A model generated the notes under the pieces. That model saw only the letters and a list, made by a program, of their open reading frames with translations. It did no database searches and was not told where the DNA came from. From Pygmaiobacter sp. (GTDB taxonomy: Bacteria > Bacillota > Clostridia > Oscillospirales > Ruminococcaceae): a stretch of 33,321 bases of DNA. Shown here piece after piece: positions 2,129 through 4,516 of this stretch. The stretch is from assembly GCA_028689835.1 (NCBI GenBank), contig JAQVCK010000008.1:1-33321 (forward strand). Direction: 5' to 3'. A program made the position numbers and the translations under genes. Numbering within the stretch: position 1 is the first letter of the stretch; each line of letters opens with the position of its first letter.

Positions 2129-2157
2129 TTGACAAGCTAACATTTGTTAGTTATACT
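2129..2157 (+). promoter_or_regulatory. Sigma-A type promoter TTGACA-17 nt-TATACT
   Basis: TTGACA at 2129-2134, 17-nt spacer, TATACT at 2152-2157; RBS GGAGGT and ATG at 2196 follow. Confidence 0.9.
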
Positions 2158-2180
2158 GTAACTAACAAATGTTAGCTTGT
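2132..2180. promoter_or_regulatory. Twin operator: perfect 22-bp inverted repeat, each arm containing a 14-bp palindrome
   Basis: ACAAGCTAACATTTGTTAGTTA-tactg-TAACTAACAAATGTTAGCTTGT; CTAACATTTGTTAG (2137-2150) in the -35/-10 spacer and CTAACAAATGTTAG (2162-2175) over the expected +1. Confidence 0.88.
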
Positions 2181-2609: not shown

Positions 2610-3344
2610 ATGAAAGTCGTGATGTTAAACGGCCAAAACCATAAGGGCAGCACCTACCACATGGGCAGACTGCTGATTGACCAGCTGCCCGGCACGCCGC
2701 AGGTGACCGAATTTTTTTTGCCCAAAGACCTGCCCCACTTTTGCAATGGGTGCTACGCCTGCGTTGAGGATGAGGCCCGCTGCCCTTATGCCGAAGAAAA
2801 GGGCCGCATTTTACAGGCGATAGAGCAGGCCGACCTGTTGATTGTCACCACGCCAAACTACTGCATGGCACCCTCGGCCCCGCTGAAAGCGTTTATCGAT
2901 TTGACCTTTACCTGTTGGGTCAGCCACAAGCCGCGCGCGTGCATGTTTGCAAAGCGCGCCGTCGTGCTTTCTACCACGGCGGGTGCGGGTGCAAAGCAGG
3001 CCATCAAGCCGGTCAAAACGGCGCTAACCTGCTGGGGCATGCCCTGGGTAAAAAGCTGTGGCGTTGCCGTGCAGGCCATGAACTGGGCTGGTGTTTCGGC
3101 CAAAAAAAAGGCCGCCATTGAAAAAAAGATGGGCCGCCTTGCCAAAGCCGCGGCGCACAGCGGCCGCCCGCGGGTACCCATAAAAACGAAACTGCTGTTT
3201 TGGATGATGCGCAAAATGCAGCAGGCAAACTGGGGCAGCGGCCCCACGGAGAAAGCCTACTGGCAACAGCACGGCTGGCTGGGAAAGGAGCGCCCATGGA
3301 AGCAACTGCAACCACAAGAGAAAAAATTATCTACCACGCCCTAA
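2610..3344 (+). CDS. Flavodoxin-like NAD(P)H-dependent FMN reductase family protein
   Basis: MKVVMLNGQNHKGSTYHMGRLL (flavodoxin-like phosphate loop), LPHFCNGCYACVEDEARCPY; start directly abuts upstream stop (TAAATG). Confidence 0.82.
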   Translation: MKVVMLNGQNHKGSTYHMGRLLIDQLPGTPQVTEFFLPKDLPHFCNGCYACVEDEARCPYAEEKGRILQAIEQADLLIVTTPNYCMAPSAPLKAFIDLTFTCWVSHKPRACMFAKRAVVLSTTAGAGAKQAIKPVKTALTCWGMPWVKSCGVAVQAMNWAGVSAKKKAAIEKKMGRLAKAAAHSGRPRVPIKTKLLFWMMRKMQQANWGSGPTEKAYWQQHGWLGKERPWKQLQPQEKKLSTTP

Positions 3345-3916
3345 AACTGTTTGCCGCAAAGGGGTACAGCGGGGTGTCGATGCGCGAAATTGCGGCGGCG
3401 GTGGGCATTCAGGGTGCTTCGCTGTACAACCATTTTAAGGGTAAAGAGGACATTTTTAACGCCATTTTTGCCGAAATGACAAAGCAGTACGACGCGGCGG
3501 CGGTTATGTTGCAGGTGCCAATAGAGGACGCGGTGCCCGCCGCAGAGCAGTACCACAACATCAGCGAAGAACAGCTGTTTGAAACAGGCAAAGGCTTGTT
3601 TTCGTTTTTTACCCAAAACGAATTTGCCGTGCTGTTTCGCAAGCTGCTGGTGTCGGAGCAGCACAAATTTCCGCTTGCGGGGCAGCGGTTTCAGCAATAT
3701 TATTTAAACGGGCCAATACAGTTTCAAAGCGCCGTCTTTTTTGCTTTGCAGCAAACGGGTGATTTAGTGGAGTGCGATGCCGAGACCATGGCCCTGCACT
3801 TTTACAGCCCCATTTACTATTTGCTCAGCAAGTTTGATTTGGGCTGCCCTTATGACGACTGCATTGAACAGCTTAAAAAACACGTGCACCTGTTTTGCAC
3901 CTTGTACCGCAAATAG
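3296..3916 (+). CDS. TetR/AcrR family transcriptional regulator
   Basis: ATTREKIIYHALKLFAAKGYSGVSMREIAAAVGIQGASLYNHFKGKEDIF; RBS AAAGGAG before ATG 3296; overlaps the upstream ORF end. Confidence 0.9.
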   Translation: MEATATTREKIIYHALKLFAAKGYSGVSMREIAAAVGIQGASLYNHFKGKEDIFNAIFAEMTKQYDAAAVMLQVPIEDAVPAAEQYHNISEEQLFETGKGLFSFFTQNEFAVLFRKLLVSEQHKFPLAGQRFQQYYLNGPIQFQSAVFFALQQTGDLVECDAETMALHFYSPIYYLLSKFDLGCPYDDCIEQLKKHVHLFCTLYRK

Positions 3917-3997
3917 CACGCTGCGTGCGGTGCGGGGCATAAACAGAAAATGAAAACCACCCTCGCCCGCCGTGGGCAGGGGCACAAAGGGGCCACG

Positions 3998-4516
3998 ATG
4001 AACGCCGCTTTTTTATTGCTTCCGTTTTTATTGATCCGCTTTTTACTGCTGGGGCTGCGCAACCGGCAGGCGCTGGCCCGCGTGGCTTTTTTTGCCCCGC
4101 TTGCCGGGGCAGAGAAGGCCGCTTATTGGGTTTACCAGCTTGCAACGTTGCTGCTGTTTGTCGGCCCGTTTTTTTTGACGGTGCAAACCGGCGGCGGTTG
4201 GTTTGCCGCCGGCATTCTGGTTTTGGCCATTGGGGCAGCGCTATGTGCCGCCGCGGTGGTAGACTTTGCAAAGCCCACCGAAAACGGGTTTCACCAGAAC
4301 GGCCTTTACCGCTTTTCGCGCAACCCAATGTACGTGGGTTATTTCTTTTACTTTTTGGGCTGCGTGCTGCTGACGAAATCCCCGGTATTACTGGCGGCAC
4401 TGGCGGCGTTTCAGGTGTCGGCACACTGGATTATTTTATCAGAAGATCGCTGGTGCGCCGCCGAGTTTGGGCAGCAGTATGCGGCGTACAAGGCGCGGGT
4501 GCGGCGCTATTTTTAA
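3998..4516 (+). CDS. Isoprenylcysteine carboxyl methyltransferase/phospholipid methyltransferase-like membrane protein
   Basis: NGFHQNGLYRFSRNPMYVGYFFYFLGCVLL motif, multiple TM segments, C-terminal FGQQYAAYKARVRRYF. Confidence 0.82.
   Translation: MNAAFLLLPFLLIRFLLLGLRNRQALARVAFFAPLAGAEKAAYWVYQLATLLLFVGPFFLTVQTGGGWFAAGILVLAIGAALCAAAVVDFAKPTENGFHQNGLYRFSRNPMYVGYFFYFLGCVLLTKSPVLLAALAAFQVSAHWIILSEDRWCAAEFGQQYAAYKARVRRYF

Follow-up and report, generated by a model that had tools for sequence, protein, structure and literature searches.

A twin-palindrome promoter and its probable TetR-family autoregulator in a Pygmaiobacter operon

The operon and its products

The DNA analysed here, referred to as the window, is a 33,321 nt stretch from Pygmaiobacter sp., near one end of which a small operon follows a promoter containing two palindromes. 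The features of this region are listed below, with the basis on which each was assigned where one is recorded.

2129-2134, + strand: -35 hexamer TTGACA (sequence reading and promoter scan; conserved among twin CTAAC loci)
2132-2180, no strand: entire inverted repeat, with 22 nt arms and a 5 nt centre (sequence)
2137-2150, no strand: operator 1, CTAACATTTGTTAG, within the -35/-10 spacer (site search and locus comparison)
2152-2157, + strand: -10 hexamer TATACT (sequence reading, promoter scan and locus comparison)
2162-2175, no strand: operator 2, CTAACAAATGTTAG, across the expected transcription start (site search and locus comparison)
2184-2188, + strand: GGAGG ribosome-binding site of the first gene (sequence)
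2196-2609, + strand: first gene, with its ATG at 2196, encoding a small predicted membrane protein of 137 aa (sequence)
2610-3344, + strand: flavodoxin-like NAD(P)H/FMN reductase, 244 aa (Pfam, alignment and fold match)
3296-3916, + strand: TetR-family repressor, 206 aa, with the recognition helix QGASLYNHF; proposed reader of both operators

The earlier note's account of the operon, as a membrane protein followed by a flavodoxin-like reductase and a TetR protein, agrees with the open reading frames and, for the latter two, with the Pfam assignments. The 137 aa membrane protein matched no Pfam family; homologues occupy the same operon at two other loci, L052 and L106. The reductase matches PF03358 and PF02525, its structural model resembles FMN reductases, azoreductases and WrbA, and profile and model together place it with WrbA, azoreductase and SsuE-like flavoproteins. 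Four of its cysteines (C45, C48, C51 and C58, in the arrangement CX2CX2CX6C) are invariant in all six sequences compared, with relatives having either this pattern or the X7C variant. A CX2CX2CX4-7C pattern is typical of iron-sulfur flavoproteins, being found with a flavodoxin-like FMN domain in the archaeal Isf proteins; the window reductase likewise combines a flavodoxin-like fold with a compact pattern of this kind, which would make the four residues a putative cluster site. The model has a confidence of 79 overall, falling to low values around the cysteines, whilst the single reductase sequence found no match among solved structures, and a solved Isf was absent from the sequence matches listed. 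The cysteine cluster hints at a redox or detoxification role, short of proving one.

The TetR gene overlaps that of the reductase by 49 bp. Its product has an N-terminal helix-turn-helix domain (PF00440, E 5.2e-16, 58.6 bits against a cut-off of 24), and an AlphaFold2 model with a pLDDT of 91.9 is almost entirely helical, representing a confident TetR fold whose best matches in the PDB are TetR-family proteins. It is not the tetracycline-resistance TetR: the score against the equivalog NF010319 is 35.3 bits, compared to a threshold of 265, and the match is confined to the helix-turn-helix. Shortly after tetR, at 3950-4516, is a gene for a membrane protein resembling phospholipid and isoprenylcysteine methyltransferases (PF04191), which may share the same transcript.

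Architecture of the promoter

Scanning positions 1950-2300 revealed a single sigma-70-like site, that at 2129-2157, with 11 of 12 matches and a spacer of 17 between TTGACA and TATACT. Operator 2 covers the expected transcription start at around 2164, and the centres of the two operators are 25.0 bp apart. The arms of the inverted repeat (2132-2153 and 2159-2180) are each 22 nt and 100% complementary, surrounding the 5 nt centre TACTG. The earlier note had reported this promoter, with CTAACATTTGTTAG in the spacer and CTAACAAATGTTAG over the expected start, together with the perfect 22-bp repeat and the 25 bp between palindrome centres, and each of these is exactly what is read from the sequence. 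Its description of a 'palindrome-in-palindrome' holds in that two copies of one palindrome are present, but the layout adds little further. The inverted repeat exists because operator 2 is operator 1 inverted, and 14 bp of each arm amount to a single package, since each 14-mer is nearly palindromic and the second is the first inverted; the remaining 8 bp per arm, contributed by the flanks, are additional symmetry only partly retained in relatives.

Exact copies of CTAACANNTGTTAG occur twice in the window, both in this promoter. The genome search that the earlier note had suggested found the palindrome, with up to one mismatch, at these same two places only across the 2.73-Mb assembly. From base composition, approximately 0.1 exact CTAACANNTGTTAG matches are expected by chance in 2.73 Mb; for inverted repeats of 22 bp that are perfect and short-looped, the expectation in 33 kb is approximately 1e-7. 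Two sole genomic copies match the expectation for a local autoregulator, and the lack of any further CTAACANNTGTTAG in the assembly, even at one mismatch, implies that the regulator using it is local.

Just upstream of the promoter, at 2057-2106, lies a separate perfect 22-bp inverted repeat with a 6-nt loop, for which the predicted RNA fold is -43 kcal/mol (z -10.4); the assembly has no second copy even when three mismatches are allowed. It has no clear T-run and the terminator scan was silent there; a possible role is to shield the promoter from the preceding gene (1710-2009).

Conservation at orthologous loci

A single scan of GTDB genomes supplied TetR relatives that are 42-64% identical to the window protein. 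Five orthologues have intact upstream DNA (L033, L034, L036, L037 and L052; L035 was excluded owing to a contig end), and all five have twin palindromes, 25 or 26 bp apart, at the same position in the promoter. In each the -10 is a TATAAT-like hexamer with a spacer of 17, and the -35 is TTGACA, other than in L052, where it is TTTACA; this is also the one exception to TTGACA among the 18 loci with twin CTAAC palindromes. The gene order is altered in L037, tetR being first and the reductase second, and tblastn detected no membrane gene in L033, from which it appears that the promoter travels with tetR and not with the membrane gene.

Twin palindromes across the Clostridia

The pattern CTAACN4GTTAG-N9..14-CTAACN4GTTAG was searched for, using DNA alone, in 391 genomes of the class Clostridia. 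It was found in 13, including the window's own genome, at one site each, whilst a control pattern of reversed letters had no matches in the same 391 genomes. Although spacings of N9-14 were allowed, all 13 sites have N11 or N12 (chance approximately 6e-7). A homologue of the subfamily TetR is encoded in the operon directly adjoining the site in every one of the 13 genomes. Strong matches to the TetR profile (E <=1e-35) are present in 38 of the 391 genomes, amongst which are all 13 with the pattern, an overlap with a hypergeometric probability of approximately 8e-15 for a profile that was built partly from these loci. The pattern was also present in seven IMG/VR contigs, mostly at spacings other than N11 or N12 (one has N12), and no subfamily TetR was found on any of the seven; these sites were accordingly set aside as chance occurrences or tandem repeats.

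The partner genes are varied, encoding flavodoxin-like reductases, DUF998 proteins, Rce1-like membrane proteases, short-chain dehydrogenases and GT28/EryCIII-like glycosyltransferases, and at some loci ABC transporter genes are close by. The impression is of one repressor subfamily serving a range of detoxification or envelope roles, a diversity that weakens any guess at a single ligand. The glycosyltransferase genes follow the twin-operator TetR in three genomes of one genus (L109 5899-7113, L110 1212-2414 and L111 3841-5061; the Pfam assignment is from the L109 copy), hinting at the inactivation of a toxic compound. On megaplasmids of Enterococcus gilvus and E. raffinosus (L116 and L117), a subfamily TetR adjoins a DUF998 protein and the palindromes are of the CTAAT type, 34 and 25 bp apart; these loci are possible culturable models for the regulator.

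Recognition helix and operator vary together

When the best TetR loci were scanned generically and 30 loci were tabulated, the same twin geometry was found with other half-sites, namely CTAATN4ATTAG, CTAGTN4ACTAG and TAAACN4GTTTA. The helix residue following a conserved tyrosine tracks the outermost base pair of the operator. Where the helix has YNH (15 loci) a purine precedes each palindrome (R.CTAAC.Y); with YYH (4 loci) the flanks are flipped and a pyrimidine precedes it; and with YKH or YRH (11 loci) there is a G before and a C after at both operators, the half-sites having drifted. In a set of loci that are related, Fisher tests put the G/C rule at 2e-8 and the contrast of N with Y at 3e-4; the K class represents around three changes on the tree, and the covariation was spotted post hoc.

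Beyond the table, seven YKH loci with readable twin sites (L149, L150, L158, L114, L116, L007 and L139, of which L114 and L116 had been eyeballed earlier) all have the G/C flanks at both sites. Two YKYF proteins (L156 and L157) partially fit the flank rule, and one extra YYH protein (L154) fits it with weak palindromes. In several members of the subfamily, such as L138, L144 and L145, the flanks that were read lack a twin palindrome, and so the twin-site rule is not universal. The matching of helix to operator is a property of the subfamily, rather than of the window TetR alone.

These observations could be accounted for by a large, apparently undescribed TetR subfamily of Clostridia and Enterococcus in which the two palindromes hold a fixed spacing on the core promoter, mostly 25 bp, with half-site drift coupled to the helix and a helix-operator code, a reading we judge to be evenly poised between right and wrong. 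Under the proposed code, the residue after the tyrosine would read the outermost pair (N a purine, Y a pyrimidine and K a G), with neighbouring residues selecting CTAAC, CTAAT, CTAGT, TAAAC or TGAAC.

Proposed autoregulation

The earlier note had proposed that the TetR encoded at 3296-3916 regulates its own operon from this promoter. The twin sites of the orthologues, the DNA-only search that led to this subfamily in 13 of 13 genomes, and the recognition helix and operator varying in step all argue in favour of the proposal. On these comparisons, it is very probable that 2129-2180 is a promoter autoregulated by the local TetR, at which paired dimers would repress and a ligand would release them. 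The sites themselves, their placement on the core promoter and its conservation, and the TetR subfamily as their likely reader are supported by the sequence comparisons; that the TetR represses rather than activates, that two dimers are bound simultaneously and that ligand causes release, we infer.

In the proposed mechanism, two TetR dimers would bind side by side to 14-16-bp palindromes (R.CTAAC-N4-GTTAG.Y) at a distance of 25 bp, and would occupy the promoter from the -35 to past +1, so excluding RNA polymerase from the operon. Binding of an inducer by the C-terminal ligand domain would release the dimers, allowing the reductase and further TetR to be produced until the inducer was gone, such that the response would be self-limiting. 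The earlier note had envisaged a response to a small molecule or redox-active compound. A toxic substance, redox-active or electrophilic, on which the reductase acts is the probable inducer; this is a reasonable but unproven suggestion, and the sequence points to no particular ligand. A thiol switch within the repressor itself was dropped as a candidate, as the cysteines of the TetR are not invariant across relatives and so lend it no support.

Some TetR-family members are activators, and the window TetR might likewise bind and activate, or the two sites might differ in their job. No analysis run here supports this, and we regard it as very improbable: both sites overlap the polymerase footprint, the palindromes occupying positions where a repressor blocks polymerase, and the E. 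faecalis FhtR sites, which lie in the same promoter region, repress and are each sufficient to do so (PMC7858072). The palindromes might instead belong to a Crp/Fnr-type regulator: a literature search with the site letters retrieved papers on Listeria PrfA. The PrfA box is TTAACANNTGTTAA, which the core of CTAACANNTGTTAG resembles. However, from positions between the -35 and -10 hexamers and across +1, an activator of the Crp type would block transcription, and with a TetR adjoining the sites in 13 of 13 genomes, and the sites covarying with its recognition helix, this reading was rejected as very unlikely. That the repeat is instead an RNA or DNA hairpin, acting as an attenuator or terminator, is similarly implausible and was rejected: although 2135-2177, followed by the tail TGTTTT, is picked out by the terminator scan, RNA starting at around 2164 would carry the second palindrome only, the leader folds no better than shuffled sequences (z -0.27), Rfam has no match, and most relatives lack the T-run after the repeat whilst retaining the 25-26-bp geometry and promoter hexamers.

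Relation to known systems

The closest proven parallel is FhtR of Enterococcus faecalis, a heme sensor controlling an ABC efflux pump, for which the hrtBA promoter has two 14-nt palindromes in its -10/-35 region; FhtR binds both, either one is enough for repression, and the pair makes it tighter (PMC7858072). The likeness is one of layout, a TetR-family repressor with paired 14-nt palindromes on one promoter, and the systems differ in that FhtR is linked to heme and an ABC pump, whereas the window operon has a flavodoxin-like reductase. FhtR thus provides an experimental precedent for the mechanism proposed here. With two like palindromes overlapping the -35, -10 and +1 positions, the window promoter has an FhtR/tetO-like layout. 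In Tn10, tetO1 and tetO2 are palindromic operators for TetR dimers lying over core promoter elements, giving autoregulation and release by a small molecule; paired operators on the core promoter, and the proposed autoregulation and small-molecule release, are common to the window, but the Tn10 tetA and tetR promoters are divergent and the operator letters unrelated. NemR-nemA, a regulator type responding to electrophiles and quinones, also has a TetR-family repressor adjoining a flavin-dependent reductase; however, NemA is an old-yellow-enzyme reductase, not of the flavodoxin fold, and the TetR cysteines vary in the window subfamily.

In the part of the literature that was covered, no paper linked the operator letters to a TetR protein, and the subfamily with these operators is apparently previously undescribed. 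That a TetR regulates its own gene through paired palindromes is familiar; the window contains a real, well-conserved switch of an ordinary type, the arrangement of which is found in many Clostridia, and reveals no new principle of regulation. What it adds is a regulator-operator pair that is now defined and testable, along with natural variants having matched proteins and sites, which are useful for picking orthogonal repressor-promoter pairs and, in uncultured gut Clostridia, for predicting TetR operators. The portion meriting specialist attention is the helix-operator code that the subfamily may possess; if true, it would offer natural operator-repressor pairs that are orthogonal and follow a simple code.
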